Source of the DNA: Deltaproteobacteria bacterium
GTDB lineage: Bacteria > Desulfobacterota > Binatia > UBA12015
Reading direction: 5' to 3'
NCBI GenBank assembly: GCA_016874795.1
Contig: VGTG01000018.1
Coordinates: 1 to 50,974 of the forward strand
Length of the DNA stretch: 50,974 nucleotides
Part shown: positions 7,614-46,926 of the stretch, piece after piece
How the letters are laid out: every line of letters begins with the position of its first letter
Position numbering within the stretch: the stretch's first letter is position 1
Program-made: the position numbers and the translations under genes
The notes under the pieces: generated by a model
What the model was told of the DNA's origin: nothing
Seen by the model: only the letters and a program-made list of their open reading frames with translations
The model's database searches: none

Positions 7614-7615
7614 GC

Positions 7616-8065
7616 TCACGCTCCTCCCCGCGTTCCGACGGGCCGCCATTTCCAGACGAGGTACTCGTTCTCCGCGTCCTCGAAGAGGGTGTCGAGCTCG
7701 AGCTCCATCTCCATCCCGACCCGGAGATCCGCGATCTCGAAGCCCTTCACGACCTGCCCGAGCACGACCATCTTCTCCGTGCCGAGCTCGACGGCGGCGA
7801 CGATGTACGGCACGAACGGATCGGGAGCGACGTACGGCGCCGGCGGCGGGTAGGCGTTGTTCGTGTAGGACCAGAGCGTGCCGCGGCGGCTGAGAGGCAC
7901 CTCTTCGAACTCGGTACCCTGGCACGCGGGGTTCCGGCAGAAGAACGACTCCTTCGGGAAGAAGTAGCTCCGGCACGACGTGCACTGGCTGCCGAGGAGA
8001 GCGACCGTTCCGTCGGCGACGAACCAGCCCTCGATGGCGGGGACGCGTTTCTTCTGCGTGCTCAC
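7616..8065 (-). CDS. DUF35 zinc-ribbon/OB-fold acyl-CoA-associated protein
   Basis: This 149-residue protein has an N-terminal rubredoxin-like zinc ribbon (Cys28, Cys31, Cys43, Cys48; CTSC and CRNPAC) followed by a DUF35 OB-fold. DUF35 proteins bind acyl-CoA and form complexes with Ltp-type thiolases. The partner gene starts two bases downstream. It starts with GTG at 8065. It lies between an acyl-CoA dehydrogenase and the Ltp gene in the same operon, as expected for a steroid side-chain aldolase module. The family is clear; the substrate is inferred. Confidence 0.87.
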   Translation of the reverse strand: MSTQKKRVPAIEGWFVADGTVALLGSQCTSCRSYFFPKESFFCRNPACQGTEFEEVPLSRRGTLWSYTNNAYPPPAPYVAPDPFVPYIVAAVELGTEKMVVLGQVVKGFEIADLRVGMEMELELDTLFEDAENEYLVWKWRPVGTRGGA

Positions 8066-8084
8066 GGCTCTCCTTACTCGACGA

Positions 8085-9182
8085 TCACGACGCCGACGAC
8101 GCGGACGATCGCACGTTCGCAGCGAAGCCGAACGACGGCGCGGGACCGTCGCCGTCGACGACGGCCGCGCCGACGCGGCGGCGGTGCCACGAGGCGCTGC
8201 CCCACGCGGACTCGAGCGCCCAGGCGCGCTTCATCCAGATGTGGAGGTCGACCTCCCAGGTGTAGCCGATCGCGCCGTGCACCTGCAGCGCGGTGCGCGC
8301 GGCGGCGAGCGCTGCTTCCGAAGCGGCCGCGTTCGCGAGCGAGACGTCGACGCCGCGCGCGGCTTCTCCGCGCGATTCCGGGTGCGCGACGGAGTGCGCG
8401 GCTCGGTAGACGAGCGGCCGCGCGAACTCGATCTTCACCTGCACGCTGGAGAGCATGTGCTTGACCGCCTGGAACGAGCCGATCGGCTTTCCGAACTGCT
8501 CGCGCTGCCGCGCGTAGGCGACCGCGATCTCGACCATGCGCTGCGCGAGACCGAGCTGCTGCGCGGCGACCGCGAGGGCGCCGCGGTCGAGAGCGGCCCC
8601 GAGGAGCTTCCTTGCGTCCGCGCCGGACGCGAGCAGCCCGTCCTTCGACGTCGTCGAAGCTGCGTCGATCGTGAAGAGCCGCCGCGAGAGATCGCTCGCG
8701 GGCTGCGCCGTGAGCTTCACGCGATCGCGCGGAACGGCGTGGATCGCGCTCTCGTCCGCGACGACGATCAGGCCGGCGACGTGCGCGTCGCTGACGACCG
8801 GGCTCCGCGGGTGTGCGATCGCGAGGATCGCCTCGCCGGAAGCGATGCGAGGCAGCCACTCCGCCGCGAGCGAGGAGCCGGAGTCGCGCAGCAGCGGCGC
8901 TCCGACCGCGGCCGTCTCGACTACGGGATCCGGAAGCGCGACGCGACCCGCCTCCTCGAGCAGCAGCACGAGGTCGACCTCGCCGAGCCCGAGCCCGCCG
9001 TGGTCCTCCGGAACGAGGACCCCCAGGAGACCGACCTCGGCGAGCTTCGCCCAGAGCTCTCGCGAGCGGCCCGTCTCGGTCGCCCAGAGGCTTCGCAGGG
9101 ACTCGGGCGTGCACTCGTCTTCGAGGAATGCCCGGAGGTTCTCCCGGAACAGCCGGTGGTCCTCGGTGAAGTCGAAGCGCAC
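8085..9182 (-). CDS. acyl-CoA dehydrogenase
   Basis: This 365-residue acyl-CoA dehydrogenase has the N-terminal helical domain (FTEDHRLFRENLRAFL), the PEDHGGLGLGEVD segment, and the C-terminal FAD-contacting motif YARQREQFGKPIGSFQ with LQVHGAIGYTWE. It resembles the ACAD subunits that work as alpha2beta2 pairs in steroid CoA oxidation. The middle domain is short and lacks a clear substrate-binding SEP-GSD motif. GTG at 9182 is the first codon of the operon and has no ribosome site; a promoter -10 box ends only six bases upstream, so the mRNA may be leaderless. The Ser/Ala-rich tail of about 30 residues is unusual. Confidence 0.88.
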   Translation of the reverse strand: MRFDFTEDHRLFRENLRAFLEDECTPESLRSLWATETGRSRELWAKLAEVGLLGVLVPEDHGGLGLGEVDLVLLLEEAGRVALPDPVVETAAVGAPLLRDSGSSLAAEWLPRIASGEAILAIAHPRSPVVSDAHVAGLIVVADESAIHAVPRDRVKLTAQPASDLSRRLFTIDAASTTSKDGLLASGADARKLLGAALDRGALAVAAQQLGLAQRMVEIAVAYARQREQFGKPIGSFQAVKHMLSSVQVKIEFARPLVYRAAHSVAHPESRGEAARGVDVSLANAAASEAALAAARTALQVHGAIGYTWEVDLHIWMKRAWALESAWGSASWHRRRVGAAVVDGDGPAPSFGFAANVRSSASSAS

Positions 9183-9188
9183 CCGGAG

Positions 9189-9217
9189 CGGGTAACAAGG
9201 CCGCTGGACGCGGTAAA
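9189..9217 (-). promoter_or_regulatory. promoter/operator-like site of the ACAD-DUF35-Ltp-thiolase-SDR operon
   Basis: On the minus strand, TTTACC (9212-9217) is followed after 17 bases by TACCCG (9189-9194), which overlaps a TGTTA box. The arrangement is repeated upstream of ipdA at identical spacing, with 19 of 26 bases the same. The GTG start lies about six bases downstream, consistent with leaderless transcription. Assignment as promoter or regulator site is inference. Confidence 0.45.
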
Positions 9218-9280
9218 GGACGCCTCCGACTGGTAGGAGCCTCGCCCTCGTAGTATCAAGCCGTAGTCTGGATCGATATC

Positions 9281-9856
9281 ATGGCTAAGGTCGTCAGGCG
9301 CCAGGCATCGGGCCGCTTCCTCCTGCGCATCGCGCCGGGGCTGCACGCGGCCCTGCGGACCGCGGCCCGGGCCTCGAAGGTCTCCTTGAACGACTACTGC
9401 GCCCGCAAGCTGGCCGCTCCGATCGGCGCTCTGGCAGCGCTTCCCCCCGGAGCTGCGGTCGTCGAACGAGCCGGCGCGGCGTGCGGCGCGAGCCTCCTCG
9501 GCGTGGTCGTCTATGGATCCTGGGCTCGCGGAGAGGCGACACCTCGCTCGGACGTCGACGTCCTCATCGTCCTCGACGGCGACACGCCTCCGAGCCGCGC
9601 GCTCTATCGCGCGTGGGACGCCGAAGACCCGCCGACCTGGGAAGGTCGTCCCGTCGAGCCACATTTCGCCTGCTTGCCGGAGCCTTCGGAGGCGATCAGC
9701 GGCCTCTGGGCGGAAGTCGCGACGGACGGCGTCGTGCTGCTCGAGCAGGAGCTGCGGGTCTCCGCGCATCTCGCGCACGTCCGGCGCGAGATCGTGTCCG
9801 GACGAATCGTGCGGCGCTTCTCGCACGGCCAGCCGTACTGGTCCCTGGTGGCTTGA
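9281..9856 (+). CDS. minimal nucleotidyltransferase with N-terminal RHH/HicB-like domain (antitoxin of HEPN pair)
   Basis: This 191-residue protein has two parts. Residues 10-48 (SGRFLLRIAPGLHAALR, then SLNDYCARKL) look like the ribbon-helix-helix/HicB-type DNA-binding fold. Residues about 70-190 are a minimal nucleotidyltransferase with GSWARGEATPRSDVDV, the GS-x10-DxD metal site. MNT-domain proteins neutralise HEPN toxins by nucleotidylation. The next gene, 9 bases downstream, is a HEPN protein, so this is probably a type VII-like toxin-antitoxin pair. The fused DNA-binding domain suggests autoregulation, which is inference. The ATG at 9281 was chosen because it keeps the complete N-domain. 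Confidence 0.82.
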   Translation: MAKVVRRQASGRFLLRIAPGLHAALRTAARASKVSLNDYCARKLAAPIGALAALPPGAAVVERAGAACGASLLGVVVYGSWARGEATPRSDVDVLIVLDGDTPPSRALYRAWDAEDPPTWEGRPVEPHFACLPEPSEAISGLWAEVATDGVVLLEQELRVSAHLAHVRREIVSGRIVRRFSHGQPYWSLVA

Positions 9857-9865
9857 AGGCCTCTC

Positions 9866-10285
9866 ATGCGCAATCGCGATCTCGCCGCCGACTACGTCCG
9901 CCGAGCTTCGGCGCGTCTCCTCGCCCTCGACGTCCTCTACGACGAGAAGAGCTGGGCGGACGTCGTCCGGGAATCGCAGGAGGTCGTCGAGCTCGCGTTG
10001 AAGGGACTGCTCCGGAGCTGCGGCATCGAGGCGCCGCGACTGCACGACGTCTCCGAGGTGCTTCTCGCGGAGCGCGACCGACTGCCCGATGCGGTGCGCG
10101 CGGAGCTCGACCGTCTCGCCGCGATCTCCCGCGACCTCCGCCGGGACCGCGAGCTCGCGTTCTACGGGGCCGAGGACTTGACGCCCTCGAGCTTCTACTC
10201 CGAAGGGGACGCGAAGCGCGCGCGCGAGGGCGCGCAGCTCACCGTGCGGCTCGTCGCGCCGCACGTGAGCCACCGGTCGCGCTGA
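9866..10285 (+). CDS. HEPN domain protein (toxin partner)
   Basis: This 139-residue, largely helical protein has features of the HEPN family (PF05168-like): SARLLALDVLYDEKSWADVV, VELALKGLLRSCGIE, and RRDRELAFYGAED near residue 95-107. The canonical RX4-6H RNase motif of HepT toxins is not evident; Arg and Tyr are present (RELAFYG) but the His is missing. It lies 9 bases downstream of the nucleotidyltransferase and is probably co-transcribed with it. It may be a nucleic-acid-binding or nuclease toxin, or an inactive partner. The gene converges on gpsA with a 22-base gap. Confidence 0.8.
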   Translation: MRNRDLAADYVRRASARLLALDVLYDEKSWADVVRESQEVVELALKGLLRSCGIEAPRLHDVSEVLLAERDRLPDAVRAELDRLAAISRDLRRDRELAFYGAEDLTPSSFYSEGDAKRAREGAQLTVRLVAPHVSHRSR

Positions 10286-10307
10286 GCGCTTCGAGAGTCG
10301 CGTCGCC

Positions 10308-11318
10308 CTACAGGATCCCGAGGAACTCGGGCTTCGGCTCGCGGTTCATCAGGAGCTCCATCGCGTCGCCGATCGAGCGGTCCTGATAGAGGACGTAGTA
10401 GACCTGCTCGAGAAGCGGCGCGTCGACGCCGAGCTTCTTCGCGAGCTGGTGCGCCGGCTCCGCCGTGAAGTAGCCCTCCGCAACGGCATTCTGCGACGCC
10501 ACGATCTCCCTCGCCTTCCCGCCGCGCGCGACCAGGCGGCCGAGCGTGTGGTTCCGCGAGAGCTCGCCGGTGCACGTCAAGATCAGATCGCCGACGCCGG
10601 CAAGGCCGAGAAACGTGACCGGGTGTGCGCCGCGCGCGACGCCCATGCGTGTGATCTCCGCGAGCCCGCGCGAGATCAGCGAAGCGCGCGCGGAGAGCCC
10701 GAGGCCGAGCTCGTCCGCCGTGCCGCACGCGATCGCGATCACGTTCTTCAGCGAGCCCGCCATCTCGACGCCGATCGGATCGTTCCCCGCGTAGACGCGG
10801 AAGGAAGGCGCGTGCAGGATCGCCTGCACCGCGTGCGCCGTTTCGATGTCGCTCGAAGCGACCGCGATGTCCATCGGCAAGCCGCGCGCGAGCTCCTTCG
10901 CGAACGTCGGACCGGAGAGGAACGCGTGGCGCCGCACGGAGTCGGGCAGGACCTCCGCGAGCACCTCGCTCATCAGCTCGAGCGAGCCGTGCTCGATCCC
11001 CTTCGTGCAGCAGCCGATAAACGCGCCCGGCGGCAGGTGTGGCCGCGCGCGCTCGGCAACGGAGCGGACGTGCTGCGCCGGAGCGACGACGAGCACCAGG
11101 TCCGCCTCTTCGAGCGCCCACGCGAGGTCGTGGTGGAACTCGATCGCCTCCGGGATCGGCACGCCCGGCAGGTACGGCGCATTCTCCTTCTCCTCGCGGA
11201 TCCGCGCGGGGAGATCGACCTCGTGCGTCCAGACGCGCACGCGATAGCCGCGCGAGTGGCAGAGGAGCGCGAGAGCGGTGCCGAACGCGCCGCCGCCGAG
11301 GACGCCGACACGTGTCAC
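10308..11318 (-). CDS. gpsA: glycerol-3-phosphate dehydrogenase [NAD(P)+]
   Basis: This 336-residue full-length GpsA makes sn-glycerol-3-phosphate from dihydroxyacetone phosphate for phospholipid synthesis in the cytoplasm. It has the N-terminal Rossmann motif GGGAFGTAL (8-16), CTKGIE near 104, the catalytic Lys region AGSLKNVIAIACG and GLAGVGDLILTC, followed by SRN-TLGR and a C-terminal VYYVLYQD segment. It starts with GTG at 11318. It stands alone between the HEPN module and an acyl-CoA dehydrogenase and is the only clear housekeeping gene in the window. Confidence 0.95.
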   Translation of the reverse strand: MTRVGVLGGGAFGTALALLCHSRGYRVRVWTHEVDLPARIREEKENAPYLPGVPIPEAIEFHHDLAWALEEADLVLVVAPAQHVRSVAERARPHLPPGAFIGCCTKGIEHGSLELMSEVLAEVLPDSVRRHAFLSGPTFAKELARGLPMDIAVASSDIETAHAVQAILHAPSFRVYAGNDPIGVEMAGSLKNVIAIACGTADELGLGLSARASLISRGLAEITRMGVARGAHPVTFLGLAGVGDLILTCTGELSRNHTLGRLVARGGKAREIVASQNAVAEGYFTAEPAHQLAKKLGVDAPLLEQVYYVLYQDRSIGDAMELLMNREPKPEFLGIL

Positions 11319-11484
11319 GACGCCTCCGTACCTCTCGAAATCCGAATCTCACCTCGCGCGATCGTGCTCATGCGTCTTCCGAGCACTCCCCGTATTCCGC
11401 CCCCACGTCAACTGCGCCTCGGCTGCGGCTCCTGTCGGCTCGCTCACCGCGGGCCGCTGCGATAGCTTCGCCTGGCTCGCGGCC

Positions 11485-11605
11485 ATGCCTGGAACCAAGC
11501 TGCTCGTGATCGGCCTCGACGGGGCCGACAAGAACCTTCTCTCGCGCGGTCTCGCGTCGGGTCGCCTTCCCGCACTCGCCTCGCTTGCAAGGACTGAGGG
11601 GCGAA
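11485..11605 (+). pseudogene. truncated N-terminus of a type I phosphodiesterase/nucleotide pyrophosphatase
   Basis: From an ATG at 11485 the frame reads MPGTKLLVIGLDGADKNLL, then SGRLPALASLARTEG. This is the typical start of alkaline-phosphatase-superfamily phosphodiesterases, including the first metal Asp in LDGAD. Similarity ends after about 40 codons, where the sequence runs into the 3' end of the opposite-strand acyl-CoA dehydrogenase. The remaining 400 or more residues are absent. The 300 bases between 11319 and 11618 hold nothing else I can identify. Confidence 0.6.
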
Positions 11606-11618
11606 GGACCGCTGGGGC

Positions 11619-12779
11619 TCAGCTCTTCGGAAGCCCGAGGAGCCGCTCGGCGATCACGTTTCGCTGGATCTCGTTCGTCCCCGCGTAGATCGGACCCGCG
11701 AGCGAGAAGAGGAACCCGTCGAGCCACGTGCCGACGTCGCCCGCTGCGGGCGCGTGCGGCTTGAGCTCGGCGCGCGCGCCGAGGATCGACAGCGCCGTCT
11801 CGTGCATCTGCACGTCCATCTCCGACCAGAAGATCTTGTTGAGCGACGCTTCCGCGCCGATCGAGCCGCCCGTGATCAGGTGCGTCGCCGTCTTGTAGGT
11901 GTTGAGGCAGTACGCCTCCGCGTTGCTCCACGCGCGGACGACCGCTTCGCGCACCGACGGATCGCACTCGTGCGCGTGCCGTCGGTAGAGCTCGACGAGA
12001 CGCGCGGCCGTCGCCTGGAAGCGCGCCGGGCTCCGCAGCATCAGGCCGCGCTCGAACCCGGCCGTCGCCATCGCGACCTGCCAGCCCTTGCCGAGCGCGC
12101 CGAGCTGGTTCCAGCGCGGCACGCGCGCGTCCTCGAAGAAGACCTCGGCGAAGCCCGTCTCGCCGTCGAGCTGCGAGATCGGGCGCACCGTCACGCCCTC
12201 GAGGTCGAGCGGGACGAGGACGAACGTCAGGCCCTGGTGGCGCGTCGACTCCGGATCGGTCCGGAAGATCCCGAAGAGCCAGTCCGCGAAGGCCGCGCGT
12301 GAGGACCACGTCTTCTGCCCGTTCAGGACGAAGTGGTCGCCGTCGATGCGCGCCGTCGCGCGGATCGCCGCCATGTCGCTGCCCGCATTCGGCTCGGACC
12401 AGCCCTGCGCCCAGACCTCTTCCGAGGAGGCCATCTTCGGCAGGAAGCGCCCCTTCTGCTCCGGCGTACCGTACTCCATCAGCGTCGGACCGAGGAGGAA
12501 GAGCCCGTTCTGATTGACGCGTCCGGGTGCGCCGGCGCGCCAGTACTCCTCCTCGAAGATCAGCCACTCGATCAGGTTCGCGCCGCGGCCGCCGTACTCC
12601 TTCGGCCACGAGACCATCGCCCAGCCGCCCGCGTTGAGAGTGCTCTCCCACGCGCGGTGCGCCGCGAATCCCTCCGCGGTGTCGAACGACGGCAAGGGCT
12701 CGCGCGGCACGTGCGCCTCGAGCCAGGCGCGCGCCTCGGCGCGGAAGGCCTTCTCGGCCTCGGTGAAGGTCAGGTCCAC
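11619..12779 (-). CDS. acyl-CoA dehydrogenase (FadE30-like), steroid operon
   Basis: This 386-residue acyl-CoA dehydrogenase has all ACAD domains. It has WPKEYGGRGANLIE, the substrate/FAD segment QGWSEPNAGSDMA, NGQKTWSS, the internal FERG motif and the C-terminal AGTNEIQRNVIAERLLG. The FERG type matches FadE26/FadE29/FadE30-like large subunits of actinobacterial steroid pathways. It is the last gene of the ipdA-ipdB-ipdC-echA20 operon, four bases after echA20, and starts with GTG at 12779. FadE30 dehydrogenates HIP-CoA as I recall; this substrate is inferred from operon context. Confidence 0.88.
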   Translation of the reverse strand: MDLTFTEAEKAFRAEARAWLEAHVPREPLPSFDTAEGFAAHRAWESTLNAGGWAMVSWPKEYGGRGANLIEWLIFEEEYWRAGAPGRVNQNGLFLLGPTLMEYGTPEQKGRFLPKMASSEEVWAQGWSEPNAGSDMAAIRATARIDGDHFVLNGQKTWSSRAAFADWLFGIFRTDPESTRHQGLTFVLVPLDLEGVTVRPISQLDGETGFAEVFFEDARVPRWNQLGALGKGWQVAMATAGFERGLMLRSPARFQATAARLVELYRRHAHECDPSVREAVVRAWSNAEAYCLNTYKTATHLITGGSIGAEASLNKIFWSEMDVQMHETALSILGARAELKPHAPAAGDVGTWLDGFLFSLAGPIYAGTNEIQRNVIAERLLGLPKS

Positions 12780-12783
12780 GCGC

Positions 12784-13554
12784 TCAGCCCTTCTTCGTGT
12801 CCTTGAAGCTCGCGTCGCGCTTCTCGACGAAGGCGTCGCGCGCTTCCTGCGAGTCGGGCGACGTGTAGAGCTCGAGCGTGAAGCCCTGCTCGAAGCGGTA
12901 GCTCTGCTTGATGTCGAGGAGCTCGATCCCGTTCAGCGACTCCTTCGCGAGCCGCACCGCCTTCGGGCTCTTCGAGGCGATCGAGGCGGCGATCTTCCGT
13001 GCCGCCGGCAGGAGACCGTCGCGCGTCGTCACCTCCTCGAGCGCGCCGAGACGGTACGCCTCGGCCGCGGTGATCGGCTCGCCCGTCAAGAGCATCTTCC
13101 GCGTCTTCTGCATCCCGAACATGCGCAGCAGGTGCGTCGCGGCCCCGAGCGCGCCGCGATCGATCTCGGGCAAGCCGAAGGTCGCTTCCTCCGAGGCGAG
13201 CACGATGTCGGCCGCGCCGACCATGCCGATCCCGCCGCCGAGCACGAAGCCGTGCGCGGCCGCGACGACCGGGACGGCGCACTCGTAGATCGCGGCGAAG
13301 GTCTCGTAGCAGCCGCGGTTCACCTTCGTGATCAGCGTCGAGTCGCGAGCGAGCTCCTTCACGTCGACGCCGGCGCAGAAGCCGCGTCCCGCCGCCGAGA
13401 GCAGCACGACGTGCACGTCTTCGCTCTCGCCGAGCGCGCGGAAGTGCTTCGCGAGCGCGAGCCAGCCGTCGCTGTCGAACGCGTTGACGGGCGGATGGTT
13501 CAGGACGACGTGCGCGACGCCGCCTTCGATCTGGGTGTCAGCCGGCACTCGCAA
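12784..13554 (-). CDS. echA20: enoyl-CoA hydratase/isomerase family ring-opening hydrolase, EchA20-like
   Basis: This 256-residue crotonase has oxyanion-hole segments GRGFCAGVDVKEL (about 56-68) and GFVLGGGIGMVG (about 102-113), ATFGLPEIDRGALGAATHL and a C-terminal SYRFEQGFTLEL. Several of these are nearly the same as EchA20 (Rv3550), which hydrolyses a steroid C/D-ring beta-diketone CoA ester (5-OH-HIC-CoA) in cholesterol catabolism. TTG at 13554 is preferred because AAGGAGG lies five bases upstream, giving a 17-base overlap with ipdC. GTG at 13548 is an alternative. Its position next to ipdABC supports the role. Confidence 0.8.
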   Translation of the reverse strand: MRVPADTQIEGGVAHVVLNHPPVNAFDSDGWLALAKHFRALGESEDVHVVLLSAAGRGFCAGVDVKELARDSTLITKVNRGCYETFAAIYECAVPVVAAAHGFVLGGGIGMVGAADIVLASEEATFGLPEIDRGALGAATHLLRMFGMQKTRKMLLTGEPITAAEAYRLGALEEVTTRDGLLPAARKIAASIASKSPKAVRLAKESLNGIELLDIKQSYRFEQGFTLELYTSPDSQEARDAFVEKRDASFKDTKKG

Positions 13555-28013: not shown

Positions 28014-29201
28014 ATGGACCTGCGACCGACAGCGGCCGAAGAGCGGTTCCGCGCCGAGCTCCGCGCTTGGCTGGAGACGGAAGTGCCGAAATACGGCGCG
28101 CCCCCGTCGCGCGGCGACTGGCCCGCGCGTCGCGCCTGGGACACCAGCTGGCAGCGAAAGCTCTTCGACGCCGGCTACGCCGGGATGAGCTGGCCGAAGA
28201 CCTACGGCGGCCGCGAGGCTTCCCTCGCCGAGCAGCTCATCTACTACGAGGAGTGCGCGCGCGCGCGGGCGCCCTACGTCGGCGTCAACTTCGTCGGGCT
28301 CCTGCACGGCGGACCGACGGTGATCGTCGAGGGCACCCCCGAGCAGAAAGAGCGCCACATCCCGTACATCCTGCGCGGCGAGCAGGTGTGGTGTCAGGGC
28401 TTCTCCGAGCCGGGCGCCGGCTCCGACCTCGCGAGCCTGCGCACGCGCGCCGAGCGCGACGGCGACCACTACGTCGTCAACGGCCAGAAGATCTGGACGA
28501 GCTTCGCGCAGGTCGCCGACTACTGCGAGCTGCTCGTGCGCACCGATCCCGAAGCGCCGAAGCACAAGGGCATCACCTGGCTGATCATGCCCATGAACCT
28601 ACCCGGCATCGAGGTGCGCCCGCTCGCGACGCTGCACGGCCAGAGCGAGTTCAGCGAGGTCTTCCTCGACAATGTGAGAATTCCCGTCGAGAACCGCGTC
28701 GGCGCCGAGAACGACGGCTGGCGCGTCACGAACGTCACGCTGCGCTTCGAGCGCGGCACCGCCTTCGCGGGCGAGATGGTCGACCTGAAGCGCTGGCTCG
28801 CCGAGATCGCGGAGGTCGCGCGCCGCGTGACCGATCACGGCACGCGCGCGTGGGACGACGCGAGCCTGCGCCGCGAGATCGGCCATCTGCAGGCCGAGAC
28901 GGACGCGCTCTGGTACCTCTTGAAGCTCTCGATCGCGCAGGCGGATGCGTCCGGCGTGCCCGGCATCGGCGCCTCCGCCGTCAAGCTCTTCTTCACCGAG
29001 CTGAAGCAGCGCGTCGGCGACCTGGGAATGCGCGTCCTCGGCCGCGCGGTGCTCGGGCGCTCCGACGTCGCGGGGCTCCCGTCCGAGTCGTTCACCTACG
29101 AGGCGCTGCAGTCGCTCTCGATGACGATCGCCGCGGGCTCCTCGCAGATCCAGCGCAACATCATCGGCGAGCGCATCCTCGGCCTGCCGAAGGACCGCTG
29201 A
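28014..29201 (+). CDS. acyl-CoA dehydrogenase, large-subunit (FERG) type
   Basis: This 395-residue acyl-CoA dehydrogenase has WPKTYGGREASLAE, QGFSEPGAGSDLASL, NGQKIWTSFAQ, the FERG motif (TLRFERGTAF) and a C-terminal SSQIQRNIIGERILGLPK for FAD adenosine binding. It resembles the large subunit of FadE26/27- or FadE28/29-type alpha2beta2 dehydrogenases that act on CoA esters of steroid side chains. The following gene is a shorter ACAD lacking parts of the middle domain, which fits the partner subunit. The stop is the first unit of an 11-bp tandem repeat. Confidence 0.9.
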   Translation: MDLRPTAAEERFRAELRAWLETEVPKYGAPPSRGDWPARRAWDTSWQRKLFDAGYAGMSWPKTYGGREASLAEQLIYYEECARARAPYVGVNFVGLLHGGPTVIVEGTPEQKERHIPYILRGEQVWCQGFSEPGAGSDLASLRTRAERDGDHYVVNGQKIWTSFAQVADYCELLVRTDPEAPKHKGITWLIMPMNLPGIEVRPLATLHGQSEFSEVFLDNVRIPVENRVGAENDGWRVTNVTLRFERGTAFAGEMVDLKRWLAEIAEVARRVTDHGTRAWDDASLRREIGHLQAETDALWYLLKLSIAQADASGVPGIGASAVKLFFTELKQRVGDLGMRVLGRAVLGRSDVAGLPSESFTYEALQSLSMTIAAGSSQIQRNIIGERILGLPKDR

Positions 29202-29265
29202 AGCACCGCCGAAGGACCACTGAAGGACCGCTGAACGACCGCCGAAGGACCGCCGAAGGACCACT
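29189..29265 (+). repeat. 11-bp tandem repeat (7 units) between two ACAD genes
   Basis: Seven units of GAAGGACCGCT, with variants ending CACT or GCC, run from the last codons of the upstream gene to 15 bases before the ATG at 29281. Each unit contains GAAGGA, which resembles a ribosome-binding site. The unit length is not a multiple of three, and all but the first unit lie outside coding sequence. Confidence 0.85.
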
Positions 29266-29280
29266 GAGGACGAGACGCGC

Positions 29281-30264
29281 ATGGCATTCCGACTGAGCCA
29301 GGAGCAGGAGGAGCTGCGGCAAGGCTTCCGCGACTTCTGCACGGGGCGCGTCTCGCTCGAGCGCGTGCGCGCGCTCGAAGGAAGCGGCTTCGAGCGCGAT
29401 CTCTGGCGCGAGCTCGCCGAGATGGGCGTCTTCCACCTGCGCGCGCCGGAGAGCGCGGGCGGGCTCGGTCTCGGGCACGTCGAGGCGGCGCTCGTCTTCG
29501 CGGAGCTCGGACGCGCGATCGCGCCGGGACCGCTCGTGTGGAGCCACCTCGCTTCGGGCCTCGTCGACGGTGCGGCGCGCGGCGAGACGGTCGTCACGGG
29601 GCTCGACCTGGCTTCGAGCCGCCGCGGGCCGATCGTGCTCGAGCACCTCGGGGTCGCCGACGCGGTGCTCGTCCTGCGCGAGGACGGTGTCGCACGCCTC
29701 GATCCGAAGTCGATCCGCTCCGAGCGCATCGAGACGCCGCTCGACCCGCTGACGCCGGTCTCGAGCGCGGCCGCCCTGCCCGCCGGCGAGCGCCTCGGCG
29801 GGGCCGATCTCGCGCGCGACCTGCGGCAGCTCGGCACCGTGCTCACGGCGGGAATGCTCCTCGGAATCGCGGAGGCGACGCACGTCCTCGCGGTCGACTA
29901 CGCGAAAGAGCGCAAGCAGTTCGACCGGCCGATCGGCTCGTTCCAGGCGATCAAGCACATGCTCGCGGACACCTTCGTCCGCCAGGAGATCGCCCGTGCC
30001 TCGGTGTACGCGGCCGCGGCGACGCTCGATCATCCGGAGGTCGCGGACGTCGCGACCGTCGTGTCGGAAGCGAAGATCACGGCCGGCGAGGCGGCGATGA
30101 AGAACGCGCGGACCTGCATCCAGGTGCAGGGCGGCATGGGCTACACGTGGGAGCTCCCGTCGCACCTCTTCCTGAAGCGCACCTGGGTCCTCGAATCGTC
30201 CTTCGGGACGATCGAGGAGCACGCGGATCAGCTCGCCGAAGGCGTCGGCGCCGCCGGCACCTGA
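29281..30264 (+). CDS. acyl-CoA dehydrogenase, small-subunit type
   Basis: This 327-residue, short acyl-CoA dehydrogenase has an intact N-domain (SQEQEELRQGFRDFC), a compact middle domain without the SEP-GSD substrate motif, and a C-domain with AKERKQFDRPIGSFQAIKHM and VQGGMGYTWE. It is probably the beta subunit of a heterotetramer with the gene 79 bases upstream. In known alpha2beta2 steroid ACADs one subunit carries the catalytic base and the other completes FAD binding. Its 3' end overlaps the convergent MFS gene by 37 bases. Confidence 0.88.
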   Translation: MAFRLSQEQEELRQGFRDFCTGRVSLERVRALEGSGFERDLWRELAEMGVFHLRAPESAGGLGLGHVEAALVFAELGRAIAPGPLVWSHLASGLVDGAARGETVVTGLDLASSRRGPIVLEHLGVADAVLVLREDGVARLDPKSIRSERIETPLDPLTPVSSAAALPAGERLGGADLARDLRQLGTVLTAGMLLGIAEATHVLAVDYAKERKQFDRPIGSFQAIKHMLADTFVRQEIARASVYAAAATLDHPEVADVATVVSEAKITAGEAAMKNARTCIQVQGGMGYTWELPSHLFLKRTWVLESSFGTIEEHADQLAEGVGAAGT

Positions 30265-38560: not shown

Positions 38561-38911
38561 TCAGCCGAGCGGGATCTCGATCGCCTCAGTGAGGACGTGC
38601 GCGAAGAACGGCCGCTCGCGCGCCTGCTCCAGCTCGGCGGGGGTGCACGCGACGACCTCGATCGGGGTCTGCAGGTCGAGCTCCCAGACGATCTCGCGAA
38701 TGGCGCGCTCGCGCAGGCGTGGCGTCTCGGTGAAGTCGCCGACGACGATCAGGTCGAGGTCGCTCGCCGCGTGCATGTCGCCGCGCGCGTAGCTGCCGAA
38801 GGCGAGCACGCGGCGGACGGGGAGGCGCCGATGCAGCTCGGCAACGAGCTGGGTCAGATCGCGCCCTGCGTTTTCACGTGCGCGATCACTCGCGCGGCGA
38901 GGTCCATGCAT
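38561..38911 (-). CDS. minimal nucleotidyltransferase (MNT antitoxin of HEPN pair)
   Basis: This 116-residue minimal nucleotidyltransferase has the GSYARGDMHAASDLDL metal site (GS-x10-DxD), a third acidic residue in PIEVVAC, and a conserved C-terminal FFAHVLTEAIEI. Such domains pair with HEPN proteins in type VII toxin-antitoxin systems and AMPylate the toxin. The ATG at 38911 overlaps the 3' end of the HEPN gene by 58 bases; a shorter start around LTQLVAELHRR is possible. Unlike the module at 9281, here the HEPN gene comes first and there is no fused DNA-binding domain. Confidence 0.82.
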   Translation of the reverse strand: MHGPRRASDRARENAGRDLTQLVAELHRRLPVRRVLAFGSYARGDMHAASDLDLIVVGDFTETPRLRERAIREIVWELDLQTPIEVVACTPAELEQARERPFFAHVLTEAIEIPLG

Positions 38912-39264
38912 TCTCTCGAGTCCTCGGGGCCGTAGAACTCACCCGGCGTCGTCTCTTCGAGACCGTTCGGATAGCGGCTCGGGATGTACACCTCGTCGAG
39001 CCGCTTCGCGCCGGCGAGCTCGGCGAACGTCGGATCGTGTGAGCCAGCGTCGCGCAGCAGCTTCTGGATCGAGTGGCCGAGCACGGGTCGCTCGCCAGTG
39101 CCGTAGAGAAACGCCTTGATCGCCTTCTCGGCGGCCTGCTGCGAGAGGAAGCACGCCCACTCGTCGAAGCCGGCGAGCGAGTTCGCCCGCGCTGCGGCCA
39201 GGTCGCGCTCCGCCTGGCGCAACCAACGCTCTTGCTCCGCGCGGTTCTGGTCGCGCTCGCTCAC
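38854..39264 (-). CDS. HEPN domain protein (toxin partner)
   Basis: This 136-residue helical HEPN protein has WLRQAERDLAAARANSLAGFDEWACFLSQQAAEKAIKAFLY, GHSIQKLL, and YIPSRYPNGLEETTPGEFYGPED. The last is the PF05168-type HEPN C-terminal signature. RYPNGL contains Arg but not the His of RX4-6H RNases, so catalytic activity is uncertain. GTG at 39264 lies inside the loop of a perfect 8-bp inverted repeat and lacks a ribosome site. It is co-transcribed with the nucleotidyltransferase downstream. Confidence 0.82.
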   Translation of the reverse strand: MSERDQNRAEQERWLRQAERDLAAARANSLAGFDEWACFLSQQAAEKAIKAFLYGTGERPVLGHSIQKLLRDAGSHDPTFAELAGAKRLDEVYIPSRYPNGLEETTPGEFYGPEDSRECMDLAARVIAHVKTQGAI

Positions 39265-42036: not shown

Positions 42037-42915
42037 CTACGCTGCGGCCGCCTCACCCGGCCGAAGGGCGCTCGCCGTTCCGATCAGGACGCGCGTGGCG
42101 TCGTCCTTCTCGACCCACACCTCGCAGTGCACGCGCTCGTGGACGCCCTCGGGCTCGATCCGCGCGATCCGCGCGCGCGCGGTCAACGCGTCGTTCTCCC
42201 AGACGACGTTCGTCAGCTTCAGCGACATGCGTCCGCCCGCGAGGAATCCGCGGCCGAAGCGATCGGTCATCACCCGGGCCGCGAAGCAGGTCGTCATCAT
42301 TCCCTGCACGACGATGCCCGGGAAGCCGAGCTTCTGCGCCTCCGCCGCGTCCGTGTGGTAGTTCCGGCCCGGTCCCGAGAACATCCAGCAGCGCCGCGCG
42401 TCGATCGTCTTCCGCACGGGAGCGAGATCCTCGCCCGTCGCCGTGGGAAACGGCGGCCGCGGCTCCTTCTTCTTCGCGGTGCCCGCGTCGACGACGAAGC
42501 CGTCGCTCGCCTTCTGGCTCGTCGCGAGAAAGGACTGATGCGTACGGCCGCGCACGAAGAGCCGCCCGTCGTCCGCGGCGACCACGTCCGTCTCGTTGAC
42601 GACGTAGTCGCGGCCGCGCTTGTGGTAGCGGTCGACGATCGTCGAGCGCGTGCGGATCTGCGTGCCGACGGGGATCGCTTCGAACATCTCCCAGTCCTGC
42701 TGCGCGTGCAGGTTGCCGATCAGGTTGTGCAGGTACCACTCGCCGAGGAAGCGGTAGCACTCGGAGTGATGGAGGAGCGGCGGCGCGACCTCGCGGTAGA
42801 GCGGCGAGTGGTCGTCGAGCGCGTCCTCGTAGAAGTCGACCACCTCGCGCGTCGCCGTGTAGGTGCTGCTGCCGCAGTGATGGCCGACGCGGGCCGGCTT
42901 TCCATGCAGGTTCAT
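42037..42915 (-). CDS. double-hotdog MaoC/FAS1-like dehydratase-family protein
   Basis: This 292-residue protein has two hotdog domains. The N-domain holds YEDALDDHSPLY and APPLLHHSECYRFLGEW. The C-domain holds YHTDAAEAQKLGFPGIVVQGMMT, where the usual MaoC catalytic VVHG has become VVQG. The His-to-Gln change suggests the C-domain no longer hydrates, leaving catalysis, if any, to the N-domain. The ATG at 42915 has AAGGAG upstream. It lies 23 bases after the ChsH1-like MaoC gene in the putative side-chain operon. CoA-ester binding is likely; the reaction is unknown. Confidence 0.75.
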   Translation of the reverse strand: MNLHGKPARVGHHCGSSTYTATREVVDFYEDALDDHSPLYREVAPPLLHHSECYRFLGEWYLHNLIGNLHAQQDWEMFEAIPVGTQIRTRSTIVDRYHKRGRDYVVNETDVVAADDGRLFVRGRTHQSFLATSQKASDGFVVDAGTAKKKEPRPPFPTATGEDLAPVRKTIDARRCWMFSGPGRNYHTDAAEAQKLGFPGIVVQGMMTTCFAARVMTDRFGRGFLAGGRMSLKLTNVVWENDALTARARIARIEPEGVHERVHCEVWVEKDDATRVLIGTASALRPGEAAAA

Positions 42916-42938
42916 GAGCGCTCCTTGGGGTACTGGCT

Positions 42939-43370
42939 TTAGCGCGCCGTCGGGAGTGCGATTCGGACGGTGCCGACCACGTGATTCCCGAGTCGGTTCG
43001 TACCCTGGATCGCGAGGTCGATCACGCCGCCGTCGTCCGATTTCGCTCGTACCTTGCCCGCCAGCTTCATCGTGTCGCCCGGATAGTTCGGGACGCCCAG
43101 GCGAATGCTGACGCTCTTGAACAGGGCCTCCGGCCCGGCCCAATCGCTGACGTAGCGCCCGACGATGCCATTCGTCGTCAGGATGTTCATGAAGATGCCC
43201 TTCGCACCGCGCGACTTCGCGAGCTCGACGTCGTGGTGCACGTCCTGGTAGTCGCGCGAAGCGATCGCGGTCGAGATGACGAGCGTCGGCGTGATGTCGA
43301 TCGAGAGCTCGGGAAGCTCGTCCCCGACCTTCACGTCGTCGAAGCGGCGCGTCGCTGCGAGCGAGCCCAT
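42939..43370 (-). CDS. MaoC-like enoyl-CoA hydratase subunit (ChsH1-like)
   Basis: This 143-residue single-hotdog MaoC protein has FDDVKVGDELPELSIDITPTLVISTAIASRDYQDVHHDVELAKSRGAKG. It includes the hydratase Asp and His (RDYQDVHHD) and MNILTTNGIVGRYVSDWAG. ChsH1 of mycobacteria is a similar small MaoC protein that works with the MaoC-DUF35 protein ChsH2 to hydrate the 3-carbon steroid side chain. Here a ChsH2-like gene is two genes upstream and a ChsE1-like dehydrogenase is immediately upstream (1-base gap). The assignment rests on family plus context. Confidence 0.78.
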   Translation of the reverse strand: MGSLAATRRFDDVKVGDELPELSIDITPTLVISTAIASRDYQDVHHDVELAKSRGAKGIFMNILTTNGIVGRYVSDWAGPEALFKSVSIRLGVPNYPGDTMKLAGKVRAKSDDGGVIDLAIQGTNRLGNHVVGTVRIALPTAR

Positions 43371-43371
43371 C

Positions 43372-44493
43372 TCACTCCCCCTGCACGAGCATCGCACCCA
43401 GCCGCGCGAGGTGCGGGCTCGCTCCGCCGAGCGCATACTCGTTCTGCTTCGCCCACAAGAAGAAGCGGTGGATCGGATACTCCAGGTCCGCGCCGATTCC
43501 GCCGTGGAGATGCTGCGCGGCGTGCGCGACGCGATGTCCGGCGCGGCACGCCCACCACTTCGCGACCTCCACCGCGCGAGCCGCGTCGCGCTCCTCCGCG
43601 ACCGCCCATACCGCCTGGTACAGCGTCGAGCGAATCGCTTCGACGTCGATGAACGCGTCGGCAGCGCGCATCTGCACCGCCTGGAACGTTCCGATCGCGC
43701 GGTCGAACTGCTTTCGCTCGGAGACGTAGGCCGCGGTGCGCCGCAGCGCGCCGTCCGCGATGCCGAGCTGCAGCGCGCAAATAGCGACGAGGCCGCGCGT
43801 CTCGATCCAGCGCGCGATCCCGGCGCCGGCACGCGGATCGCCGAGCACGTCGTCGTCTCCGACCTGCACGCCGCGGAGCGCGAGTCCGAACTGCGGCTCG
43901 CCGTTCGTCGTGGTCTCGCGTGAGAGGCCGACGCCCGTCGCCTTCGGATCGACGAGGAACACCGCGACCGCGCCGTCGTCCGCCTGCGCAGGAACGACGA
44001 TCCGCGCCGCGCGGTCCGCCGCGGGAACGCAGGCCTTCTCGCCGTCGAGCACCCAGCCGGAGCCGCTGCGGCGCGCTGTCGTTCGGGGACGGCTCGGATC
44101 GGTCCCGCCGATCTCCGTCAGGGCTGCCGTCAAGAACAGCTCTCCCGAGACGACGTCCGGGAGGAAGGCTCGCTTCTGCGCCGGGCTGCCGAACTCGGCG
44201 ATCGGCAGCGCTCCGAGGACGAGCGTCGGCAGGAGCGGGAGTGGTGCGATGCGGCGCCCCGCCTCCTCGCAGACGAGACAGAGCTCGAGCAATCCGAACC
44301 CGCCGCCGCCGTGCTCCTCGGGCAGAGCGACGCCGAGCAGGCTCGCACGCGCGAGGTCGCGCCAGAGGTCGAGGTCGTACCACTCCGGGTCCGCGGCGAG
44401 CTGCTTCACGCGCTCGTCGGTCGCGCGGTCCTCGAGGATGCTCCGCGCGAGGTCGCGGATCGCGTTCTGGTCCTCTGTGAGGGAAAAGTCCAT
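43372..44493 (-). CDS. acyl-CoA dehydrogenase (FadE28/ChsE1-like)
   Basis: This 373-residue acyl-CoA dehydrogenase has FSLTEDQNAIRDLARSIL and a middle domain in which the usual SEP-GSD motif is replaced by LTEIGGTDPSRPRTTA, as in FadE28/ChsE1. The C-domain has VSERKQFDRAIGTFQAVQMR, QHLHGGIGADLEYPIHRFFLW and GGASPHLARLGAML, which closely recalls the FadE28 C-terminus. ChsE1 pairs with a FERG-type ChsE2 to dehydrogenate the 3-carbon side chain CoA ester. A ChsE2-type partner may be the gene at 28014 or 11619. Confidence 0.85.
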   Translation of the reverse strand: MDFSLTEDQNAIRDLARSILEDRATDERVKQLAADPEWYDLDLWRDLARASLLGVALPEEHGGGGFGLLELCLVCEEAGRRIAPLPLLPTLVLGALPIAEFGSPAQKRAFLPDVVSGELFLTAALTEIGGTDPSRPRTTARRSGSGWVLDGEKACVPAADRAARIVVPAQADDGAVAVFLVDPKATGVGLSRETTTNGEPQFGLALRGVQVGDDDVLGDPRAGAGIARWIETRGLVAICALQLGIADGALRRTAAYVSERKQFDRAIGTFQAVQMRAADAFIDVEAIRSTLYQAVWAVAEERDAARAVEVAKWWACRAGHRVAHAAQHLHGGIGADLEYPIHRFFLWAKQNEYALGGASPHLARLGAMLVQGE

Positions 44494-44521
44494 CGATCTC
44501 TCTGCTTCCTGCGGCTTCCGG

Positions 44522-45517
44522 CTACTTCGCTACGGGACGGAACTGATGCAGCGTCAAGTCGTCGTCACAGGCGACGAATTCGCACTGTACCTCCATGCCG
44601 ATCGCGATGTCGTCCTTGGGGATGCCGATCACGTTCGAGACGATCCGCACGCCCTCGTCGAGCTCGACGAGCGCGATCGGATTCGGATAGTCGAACGCGG
44701 GAATCGGCGGGTAGTGCATCACGACGAAGCTGTAGATGCGCCCGCGGCCCTTCGAAAGGGTCGTGTCCCACTCGAGCGAGTTGCAGTGCGGGCACATCGG
44801 CTCCGGCGGATGGCGGAGCTTGCCGCAGGAGCGGCACTTCTGGATGAGGAGCTTGCCCTCCTTCAGGGCGGCCCAGAAGTGCTCGGTGTCGCGCGTCATG
44901 CCGGGGCGGGGACGCGGCGGGCGCGGTCTTGAAGGGTCCTTGGACGCGTCCTTCGGAGCTTCCTTCGGAGCTTCCTTCGGCGCGTCGCCCTTCGCGGGGG
45001 GCTTGAAGCGGAAGAGGCGGAACCGCATCGTCCCGACCGTCTCGCCCCTCTGGTCGCGGAACGTGTGGAGCTGCGAGATGAAATGTCCCTGTCCGAGCGC
45101 CGTCTTCTTCTCGTCGGAGATGCTGTCGATGACGACGCTGTGCGTGAGAAGATCGCCGGGCCGCAGGTAGCGCGCGTACTCCTGATCGCAATTGACGGCG
45201 ACGATCGAGGTGTAGCCGCGGGAGTCGAAGACGCCCCAGAGCTCCTTCTGCACGTCGGCGCCCTTCGTCGGCGGCGGCTTCAAGCCGCGCATCGTCCAGG
45301 CTTGGAGCATCGTCGGCGGGGCGACGATGCCGCCGTGCACCGACCCCTCCGCTGCCTGCGGATCGGTGTAGACGGGATTCGCGTCGCTCATCGCGTCGCA
45401 CCAGTGGCGGATCATCGGGATGTTCACGGGATCCCGCGCGACGAACGGCTCGCCCAGCTCGCGGCCCTCGAACTGCTTCAGGCGCGCCTGGAACTCGGTC
45501 GGATCGTCCTGGGACAC
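44522..45517 (-). CDS. MaoC-DUF35 fusion protein (ChsH2-like)
   Basis: This 331-residue protein has an N-terminal hotdog MaoC domain (residues about 10-160: WCDAMSDANPVYTD, GGIVAPPTMLQAW), a repetitive Lys/Glu/Ala/Pro linker (KEAPKEAPKDASKD and a Pro-Arg stretch), and a C-terminal DUF35 zinc ribbon/OB domain (CRSCGKLRHPPEPMCPHC). This is the ChsH2 layout. The hydratase half works with ChsH1, and the DUF35 half recruits an Ltp-type aldolase. GTG at 45517 is preferred because GGAGG lies eight bases upstream; the TTG at 45538 is an alternative. It is the first gene of the operon. Confidence 0.82.
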   Translation of the reverse strand: MSQDDPTEFQARLKQFEGRELGEPFVARDPVNIPMIRHWCDAMSDANPVYTDPQAAEGSVHGGIVAPPTMLQAWTMRGLKPPPTKGADVQKELWGVFDSRGYTSIVAVNCDQEYARYLRPGDLLTHSVVIDSISDEKKTALGQGHFISQLHTFRDQRGETVGTMRFRLFRFKPPAKGDAPKEAPKEAPKDASKDPSRPRPPRPRPGMTRDTEHFWAALKEGKLLIQKCRSCGKLRHPPEPMCPHCNSLEWDTTLSKGRGRIYSFVVMHYPPIPAFDYPNPIALVELDEGVRIVSNVIGIPKDDIAIGMEVQCEFVACDDDLTLHQFRPVAK

Positions 45518-45612: not shown

Positions 45613-46926
45613 ATGACGGCCACCGTACCGCCCGCGCGCACCGCGCCGACGATGACCCTGTCGCCGCTCGGCATCTTCGCCGGCATGTCCGGCAACCTGA
45701 TGGAGTGGTACGACTTCGCGCTCTACGGCGTGATGGCGACGACTCTCGGGGAGCTCTTCTTCCCGCACGGGAGCCGCCTTGCCGCGCTGCTTTCGGTCTT
45801 CGGCGTGTTCGCCGCCGGCTACGTGATGCGCCTCCTCGGCGGCGCATTGTTCGGGCATGTCGGCGACCGGCTCGGACGAAGGCGCGCTCTCCTCGTCTCG
45901 GCGGTCGCGATGGCGGTCGCGACGACCCTCGTCGGCTGCCTCCCGACCTACGCGGCGATCGGCGTGGCGGCACCGGTCCTGTTCACGCTCTTGCGGCTCG
46001 TGCAGGGCCTCTCCGTCGGCGGCGAGTTCACGACGTCGATCACGTATCTCATCGAGCACGCGCCGCCGTCGCGACGCGCGTTGCAGGGCAGCTTCGCCGG
46101 TCTCACGGCGGGACTCGGGATCCTGCTCGGCTCGGCGATCGCGAACGCGCTCTTCGCCCTGTTCACGACGGAGGAGATCCTCGAGTGGGCGTGGCGCCTG
46201 CCGTTTCTTCTCTCGGTGCCTCTCGGGCTGTGTCTCGCGATTCTGCGCTCCACGCTTCCGGAGGACGGGCCCGCCGAAGCAGCGAGCGCGAGAGCGGGAG
46301 CAGAAGCGGAAGCGCCCTCTTCGCCCGTCTGGCGCGTGCTCCGCGAGCATCCCGGCGAGGTCGTGCGCGGTGCGCTCCTCGGCTTCGGGCCGAACGCCTC
46401 GTTCTACGCGATCGCGGTCTTCCTCGCCTCGTTCCTCGCGACGGAGCACATCCTTCCCGAGACGTCCGCCCTGAGCCTCGAGACGGCTTCGATCGCGTGG
46501 ATGGTCGTCCTGACACCGATCGCGGGCGCGCTCGCGGACCGGATCGGGAGACGGAAGATGGTCCTGACCGGCGTCGTGGGCTGCGGGCTTCTCGGAGTGC
46601 CGCTCTTCGCGCTGCTGCACGGCTCGACCGCCGTCGGCGATCTCTGGGCGGAGCTTCTCTTCGCGACGTTCGTCGTCGCCGCGCTGCCGCCGTACCAGGT
46701 GTGGCTCGCGGAGCGCTTCCCGCGCGATCTCCGCGCGAGCGGACTCGGCCTCGCGTACAACGGCGCCGCCGGGATCCTCGGCGGGACGACGCCGCTCGTG
46801 TGCGCAACGCTCGCGGACGCGACCGGCAGCGAGCTCGCGCCGGGGGCGTACGTCGCGTTCGCGTGCCTCGTGAGCCTCGTCGTCGCTCTCCGCACGCCCG
46901 AGACGGGCGGCGACCATCTCGCCTGA
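45613..46926 (+). CDS. MHS-family MFS transporter
   Basis: This 437-residue protein has about twelve transmembrane segments. It starts with the MHS signature GNLMEWYDFALYGVMA and has GHVGDRLGRRRALL, RLVQGLSVGGEFTTSITYLIEHAP and LADRIGRRKMVLTG. The MHS group (ProP, ShiA, citrate and dicarboxylate carriers) performs proton symport of small organic acids or osmolytes across the inner membrane. The ATG at 45613 follows GGGAGG. It is divergent from the ChsH2-like operon, so it might import a substrate of that pathway, which is inference. Confidence 0.9.
   Translation: MTATVPPARTAPTMTLSPLGIFAGMSGNLMEWYDFALYGVMATTLGELFFPHGSRLAALLSVFGVFAAGYVMRLLGGALFGHVGDRLGRRRALLVSAVAMAVATTLVGCLPTYAAIGVAAPVLFTLLRLVQGLSVGGEFTTSITYLIEHAPPSRRALQGSFAGLTAGLGILLGSAIANALFALFTTEEILEWAWRLPFLLSVPLGLCLAILRSTLPEDGPAEAASARAGAEAEAPSSPVWRVLREHPGEVVRGALLGFGPNASFYAIAVFLASFLATEHILPETSALSLETASIAWMVVLTPIAGALADRIGRRKMVLTGVVGCGLLGVPLFALLHGSTAVGDLWAELLFATFVVAALPPYQVWLAERFPRDLRASGLGLAYNGAAGILGGTTPLVCATLADATGSELAPGAYVAFACLVSLVVALRTPETGGDHLA

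Follow-up and report, generated by a model that had tools for sequence, protein, structure and literature searches.

The question raised by this locus is whether a member of an uncultured bacterial phylum carries the enzymes that remove the last three side-chain carbons of steroids and, if so, where the parts lie that the locus itself lacks. The window, i.e., the whole stretch of 50,974 nucleotides analysed here, is the complete contig C18 (VGTG01000018.1) of a 6.27 Mb metagenome-assembled genome (MAG) of 360 contigs (96.7% complete, 2.5% contaminated), placed in Binatia, a class of the phylum Candidatus Binatota. The original prediction described in it a chsH2-chsE1-chsH1-like operon of the mycobacterial igr kind, with the module possibly divided between loci. 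We find it likely that these genes are part of a dispersed igr-type module that would shorten the side chain of a steroid-like coenzyme A (CoA) ester by its last three carbons. The genome of the window is referred to as G000, its genus relatives as G001, G002 and G003, and a member of the same family as G008.

The chsH2, chsE1 and chsH1 genes

45517–44522, minus strand: chsH2, putative MaoC domain (about residues 9–190) fused to DUF35 (about 202–329), GTG start
44493–43372, minus strand: chsE1, putative non-catalytic subunit of a heteromeric acyl-CoA dehydrogenase (ACAD)
43370–42939, minus strand: chsH1, putative catalytic MaoC hydratase subunit with the motif RDYQDVHHD

The three genes are adjacent on the minus strand, as had been described, with gaps of 28 bp (chsH2-chsE1) and 1 bp (chsE1-chsH1), and an AGGAGG-like sequence precedes the GTG start of chsH2. 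In all cases the best matches in PDB were the steroid C3-side-chain enzymes, with wide margins and scores well beyond chance, bearing out the predicted set of three; no better match to an unrelated CoA pathway was seen among the solved structures. The DUF35 half of ChsH2 matched 6ok1_B (1.6e-40) and the MaoC half 4wnb_A (4.2e-38) and 4w78_A (1.2e-37), with the next at 1.5e-16 (the names ChsH1 and ChsH2 are swapped between entries 4wnb and 4w78). ChsE1 matched Tcur3481 (6wy8_A, 299.6 bits, 3.2e-88) and 4x28_D (229.1 bits), the next ACAD being at 132.1 bits, and ChsH1 matched 4wnb_B (1.8e-37) and 4w78_B (2.2e-37), with the next other family at 1.4e-11.

In Pfam, ChsH2 was divided into an FAS1_DH region, zf-ChsH2 and OB_ChsH2_C, ChsH1 matched MaoC_dehydratas (29.1 bits, cut-off 27), and ChsE1 had strong N- and C-terminal Acyl-CoA_dh domains and a weak middle domain (38.3 bits, cut-off 33.3). 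The loss of the ACAD middle motif that had been noticed is real, since TEIGGTDPS stands in ChsE1 for the SEPGAGTD that is kept in the ChsE2 of the same genome. NCBIfam gave no Chs-named match, the best for ChsE1 being the pimeloyl-CoA dehydrogenase small subunit (PimD; 183 bits vs. a cut-off of 652.7). At the level of sequence, orthology of the three genes to the chsH2, chsE1 and chsH1 of igr-type C3 side-chain modules is confirmed.

Candidate partners on other contigs and diagnostic residues

The genome was searched with the operon-borne ChsE2 of G001 and the operon-borne Ltp2 of G008, giving one best candidate for each.

Contig C50, 5846–7018: putative chsE2, 83% identity and 751 bits to the G001 query, next match 441 bits
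Contig C199, 4220–5392: putative ltp2, 77% identity and 683 bits to the G008 query

The C50 protein matched 4x28_A, which we take to be ChsE4, at 454 bits and Tcur3483 at 449 (next 159), and the C199 protein matched TcLtp2 (6ok1_A) at 622 bits (next 170). That the Ltp partner does not adjoin the three genes was therefore well seen, and the module does appear divided between loci; the division runs over C18, C50 and C199 but not, as had been supposed, towards an Ltp-DUF35 pair at 6426–8065 of the window. The list of absent parts was also too short: besides Ltp, the catalytic subunit ChsE2 is missing from the window and had been overlooked.

6426–7610, minus strand: Ltp-type thiolase-like protein, rejected as Ltp2
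7616–8065, minus strand: DUF35 protein (OB_ChsH2_C, 41 bits), rejected as part of the module
28014–29201, plus strand: ACAD subunit with the Glu, 192 bits to ChsE2, not ChsE2
29281–30264, plus strand: ACAD without a middle-domain match, Gly at the Glu position

The pair at 6426–8065 exists, but its Ltp is of the PRK06059 type (713.4 bits vs. 153.7 for PRK07855, the reverse of the C199 Ltp2 with 154 vs. 711) and only 31% identical to the C199 protein; it ranked 16th of 25 matches to the G008 query and had a branch length of 10 in the Ltp2 tree. The accompanying DUF35 had no zf-ChsH2 match at E 1e-4 and 22.4 bits to ChsH2. As catalytic partners, the window ACADs at 28014 and 11622 were rejected with 192 and 165 bits to ChsE2, vs. 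751 for C50; both keep the Glu and lie near an ACAD that lacks it (at 29281 and 8085–9182, respectively). The Glu-less member of the pair at 28014–30264 is IpdE2-like (131 bits, below the cut-off of 450). The region 6426–13554 as a whole contains the Ltp, the DUF35, a Glu-less ACAD (IpdE2-like, 157 bits, cut-off 450), an ACAD with the Glu and an enoyl-CoA hydratase; it resembles a further set for the beta-oxidation of a side chain or ring.

The residues expected of a heteromeric ACAD are found in the predicted pair, ChsE2 having the Glu and ChsE1 lacking it. Glu242 of the C50 ChsE2 aligns to E247 of 4x28_A, which we take to be the catalytic base, and the Gly for which 6wy9 has Ala, presumably with a functional role, is also kept. 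This Glu was present in 39/39 other ChsE2 rows; at the same column the window ChsE1 has Gly, and 0/38 other ChsE1 rows have Glu (rows picked by best blast hit and including paralogues of the window genome, with the C50 row and a window ACAD drawn in by the ChsE2 query left out of the count). According to PMC11321319, dehydrogenase activity disappears when either ChsE subunit is missing, and ChsH2 has Tyr in place of the catalytic His of its MaoC dyad, the protein being non-catalytic.

The window ChsH2 has Tyr50 at the position of this His, invariant in 17/17 aligned sequences (the window and 16 relatives, from 16 of the 21 loci L011–L031). The RDYQDVHHD of ChsH1 aligns to RDFQDVHHD of 4wnb_B, with the Asp/His dyad intact. 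The zinc finger of the window DUF35 is Cys228-x2-Cys231-x10-Cys242-x2-Cys245, the four Cys being invariant in the same 17/17 sequences; in the relevant parts of PMC12329534, ChsH2-DUF35 is given as C-x2-C-x10-C-x2-C and Shy, of the proteobacterial bile acid (C5) side-chain system, as Cys3His1, and Ltp2 has YDHF and a second Tyr, while Sal has YDCY instead. The C199 Ltp2, aligned to 6ok1_A, keeps both the YDHF Tyr and Tyr344. Because of the Tyr in ChsH2, the intact ChsH1 motif and the C4 zinc finger, the residues fit the ChsH1-ChsH2/Ltp2 type. The Shy/Sal type, which shares the MaoC-DUF35 fusion and a thiolase-like aldolase but has an active MaoC, does not fit the Tyr, the zinc finger and YDHF.

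Gene order in relatives and the proposed module

The neighbourhood survey in relatives that had been suggested was carried out with a ChsH2 alignment on named genomes and gave at least 80 loci, from Actinomycetota, Pseudomonadota, Myxococcota or Deltaproteobacteria, and Binatota. Under identity thresholds of our own choice and a span of 6 kb, all five genes were together in 59 of the 80 listed loci; of the remaining 21, eight lie no more than 6 kb from a locus end, and the 13 that lie farther in are mostly without the ACAD genes. Among class-mate loci, a set that overlaps the former by at least eight loci, the five genes were together in 15/20, four were incomplete near an end, and G001 lacked only ltp2. 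Some of the open reading frames had been picked by a heuristic on third-position GC content, and false ones are among them. In the window genome the five genes do not stand in one operon and are found on three contigs.

The order in G008 is caiB-chsE2-chsH2-chsE1-chsH1-ltp2, intact; in G001 it is caiB-chsE2-chsH2-chsE1-chsH1, with ltp2 absent from the locus, and in G002 caiB-chsE2-chsH2, followed by the contig end. The position directly before chsH2, held by chsE2 in G001, G002, G003 and G008, is occupied in the window by the following gene.

45613–46926, plus strand: MFS transporter (TIGR00883, 359.8 bits, below the cut-off of 443), divergent from chsH2

On C50 a family III CoA-transferase gene (caiB-like, 609 bits) precedes chsE2, about 2.9 kb apart; a sulfatase frame with an in-frame stop lies between the two (C50, L104:8384–9922). 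In G001 and G002, too, the Ltp2 orthologue (C62, 85%, and C434, 84%, respectively) lies apart from the operon, with flanking genes common to C199. Orthologues of the ACAD pair of 28014–30264 (82% and 67%) lie close to the chs operon on G001 contig C52, and the order and strand of this pair, a luciferase-like gene and the chs genes are shared by the two contigs, for which reason the window is taken to be the probable original site of the module. Since ltp2 is outside the operon in G000, G001 and G002 and chsE2 only here, we infer from these three genomes that ltp2 left the operon in the ancestor of the genus and that chsE2, together with the preceding CoA-transferase gene, was separated from chsH2 later, in the species.

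Trees placed the genes with those of relatives. ChsE2 gave (G008,(C50,(G003,(G001,G002)))) with starred support, and, also starred, the window ChsE1 grouped with G001, G003, G008 and G012 and ChsH2 with G001, G008 and G012. The ratios of non-synonymous to synonymous substitution rates (NG86 dN/dS) vs. G001 were 0.26 for chsH2, 0.22 for chsE1, 0.25 for chsH1, 0.15 for chsE2 and 0.12 for ltp2; all five genes look to have been kept by purifying selection although dispersed. Two other sets were seen in the genus: contig C380 of G003 (L058) has, in addition to the genome's own set, a complete five-gene cassette that falls together with G066 and a Myxococcota MAG, which suggests transfer, and contig C31 of the window genome (L061) encodes at about 8954–12575 paralogous MaoC, MaoC, ACAD and ACAD (ChsE1-like, 50%) without DUF35.

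The genus also shows a natural fission of ChsH2. In G002 (L057:10618–11484) and G003 (L078:8225–9334) the protein stops after the MaoC domain, followed at once by chsE1 in G003 and by the contig end in G002. A stand-alone DUF35, 72% identical to that of the window, lies beside a second Ltp in G001 and G002, G001 also keeping the fusion. As described in the pertinent part of PMC12502768, the MaoC and DUF35 halves of ChsH2 of Comamonas testosteroni TA441, expressed apart, keep both activities. The natural fission parallels this artificial split, and the genus can therefore show on which contacts the complex truly depends.

In the mechanism that we propose, the window ChsE1 and the C50 ChsE2, assembled in trans, would form an alpha2beta2 dehydrogenase desaturating 2-(ring)-propionyl-CoA, ChsH1 and the inert MaoC half of ChsH2 would hydrate the double bond, and the C199 Ltp2, docked on the DUF35 portion of ChsH2, would carry out the retro-aldol cleavage to the ring ketone and propionyl-CoA.

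Ring-degradation genes, rival readings and significance

Profile searches of the assembly for HsaC and Delta1-KstD did not find the canonical 9,10-seco route. HsaC matches (TIGR03213) were compared by scores and not by cut-offs because the curated cut-off is exceeded in 0/28 class members and only 1/9 controls. The best in the genome was 65.5 bits, i.e., no HsaC-like gene was found, and none of the 22 class members with ChsH2 (best E 1e-70 or lower, own genome included) exceeded 70.1 bits. The nine module-carrying controls gave 258–392 bits in eight cases and no match in the deltaproteobacterial MAG G106; G005, which belongs to the family but has no such ChsH2, had 241 bits, and weak matches also occurred in 5 of 14 well-known genomes. 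For Delta1-KstD (NF005882) the best segment in the genome had 79 bits and the whole protein, on C169, 161.5 (cut-off 788), so that this gene was not found either; elsewhere the scores were 326–996 bits in 9/9 controls and 583–615 in 14/22 ChsH2 carriers. They were low in G051, in G071 and in the six carriers of the family of the window (14 family members are known), the highest of these, 254 in G003, being near the weakest control.

Other genes hint at steroid-type chemistry. Among 35 matches to PF00890 three are full-length, two of them presumably aspartate oxidase-like and succinate dehydrogenase-like; the third, on C169, has as best PDB match the Delta4(5alpha)-3-ketosteroid dehydrogenase 4at0 (404 bits, vs. 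115 for Delta1 enzymes). A KshA-like Rieske protein on C51 has 106 bits to 4qdc and 82 to 2zyl, with non-KshA chains at 61 or less. KshA was found in 14/22 genomes with ChsH2 vs. 13/76 without (Fisher p 5e-5, a hand count in which kinship is ignored).

Several points weigh against a dispersed steroid module. C18, C50 and C199 are unlinked in the MAG, and a misassembly at chsE2/chsH2 is possible. The Ltp2 tree joined C199 to G001/G002 at 87/64 only, apart from G008 and with the deeper order unresolved. The second-best genome match to the Ltp2 query, an Ltp on C162 accompanied by a DUF35 (66%, 549 bits; 66–69% identical), could be a stand-in for the C199 protein. Finally, the canonical ring enzymes were not found, and steroid as the substrate is therefore weakened.

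We consider it unlikely that the split is an assembly artefact, with chsE2 and chsH2 neighbours in the living organism and C18 and C50 misbuilt. The number of contigs and the place of chsE2 directly before chsH2 in G001 and G002 would agree with it. However, a comparison of C18 with the initial 16 kb of C50 found no shared repeat at the junction, chsH2 has its own ribosome-binding-like sequence and an intact divergent MFS gene beside it, caiB and chsE2 are some 2.9 kb apart on C50, and ltp2 is outside the operon in three genomes with common flanking genes. There is only a slight chance, in our opinion, that the substrate is a non-steroid polycyclic terpenoid acid with a 2-(cyclopentyl)propionyl-CoA group, e.g., a hopanoid-derived acid. 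The missing HsaC-like and Delta1-KstD-like genes would suit it, and the chemistry would require just a ring-CH(CH3)-CO-SCoA group, but characterised whole modules act on steroids in the portions of the literature covered, and the genome has the 4at0-like and KshA-like proteins. More distant DUF35/thiolase pairs are non-steroid, e.g., benzoylsuccinyl-CoA thiolase, a weak PDB match of ChsH2.

Still another reading involves two genes downstream of chsH1.

42915–42037, minus strand: double-hotdog MaoC protein (Pfam), 292 aa
41960–40902, minus strand: Amidohydro_2 protein (PF04909, 134.5 bits), ending the same-strand run

The range 42037–45517 given in the original prediction contains the three genes and also, unmentioned, the double-hotdog gene as a fourth. 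It is very improbable that the Chs-like subunits were recruited with these two proteins to another beta-oxidation complex, even if the genes follow on the same strand with gaps of 23 and 76 bp and no minus-strand terminator-like site lies between them (the region as a whole has three sites, where chance would give 1.5). The double-hotdog gene is common, with strong matches (E 1e-35 or lower) in 40/58 genomes, own included, and matches at E 0.001 in 48/58, and in nine relatives' regions none of the chsH2-, chsH1- or ltp2-like genes was found near its homologue, with weak ACAD paralogues (24–43%) in four of the nine. Among 269 loci there was a single place (L226/L214) where a homologue of the amidohydrolase (39%) adjoined the double-hotdog gene. 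As conserved members of the module the two genes were rejected, and a link of the amidohydrolase to the module is doubtful. Elsewhere in the window, 9281–10285 and 38561–39264 contain two HEPN-MNT-like pairs of nucleotidyltransferase and HEPN genes.

Compared with known systems, the dispersed igr-type module is new in its arrangement, its phylum and its missing ring genes, and known in its mechanism. With C. testosteroni TA441 (ORF40-44) and the actinobacterial igr operon it shares five orthologous proteins, a fused ChsH2 with an inert MaoC and, as expected here, the dependence of Ltp2 on DUF35; there the genes form one operon, whereas here they are on three contigs of a member of Binatota, a CoA-transferase gene precedes chsE2, and HsaC-like and Delta1-KstD-like genes were not found. 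Thermomonospora curvata (Tcur3481-Tcur3483, Ltp2-ChsH2(DUF35)) supplies the nearest solved structures, 6wy8_A for ChsE1 and 6ok1 for Ltp2 and DUF35. According to PMC12502768, chsE1E2 were not identified in the vicinity of the other genes in that organism; in the window, chsE1 has remained beside chsH2 and chsH1, and it is chsE2 and ltp2 that lie on other contigs.

The literature searched, which was limited, contained no paper on steroid degradation in Binatia; the Binatota genome paper has neither "sterol" nor "cholesterol" in its main text, and the passages on Binatota and steroids that were covered concern sterol synthesis genes. Binatota is a phylum that this literature does not show as known for steroid use. 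In a genome survey (PMC4810484), steroid degraders were required to have at least 6 of 8 key ring enzymes, including KshA and HsaC, and the pathway was found only in Actinobacteria and Proteobacteria, a distribution that a later metagenome survey (PMC5790920) says its own data support. A side-chain module without a strong HsaC match in an uncultured phylum would escape surveys based on ring enzymes.

Such a module points to a side-chain-only use or to an unknown ring route. The genus displays both the dispersal of an operon and a natural fission of ChsH2 to a MaoC-only protein. We offer tentatively that in Binatota, and most of all in the family of the window, the module may be uncoupled from the ring pathway, the 17-keto rings being left or opened by an undescribed route and the operon-encoded family III CoA-transferase passing CoA from the propionyl-CoA product to the next acid. 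If this were true, propionyl-CoA would be harvested from steroids or related polycyclic terpenoids.

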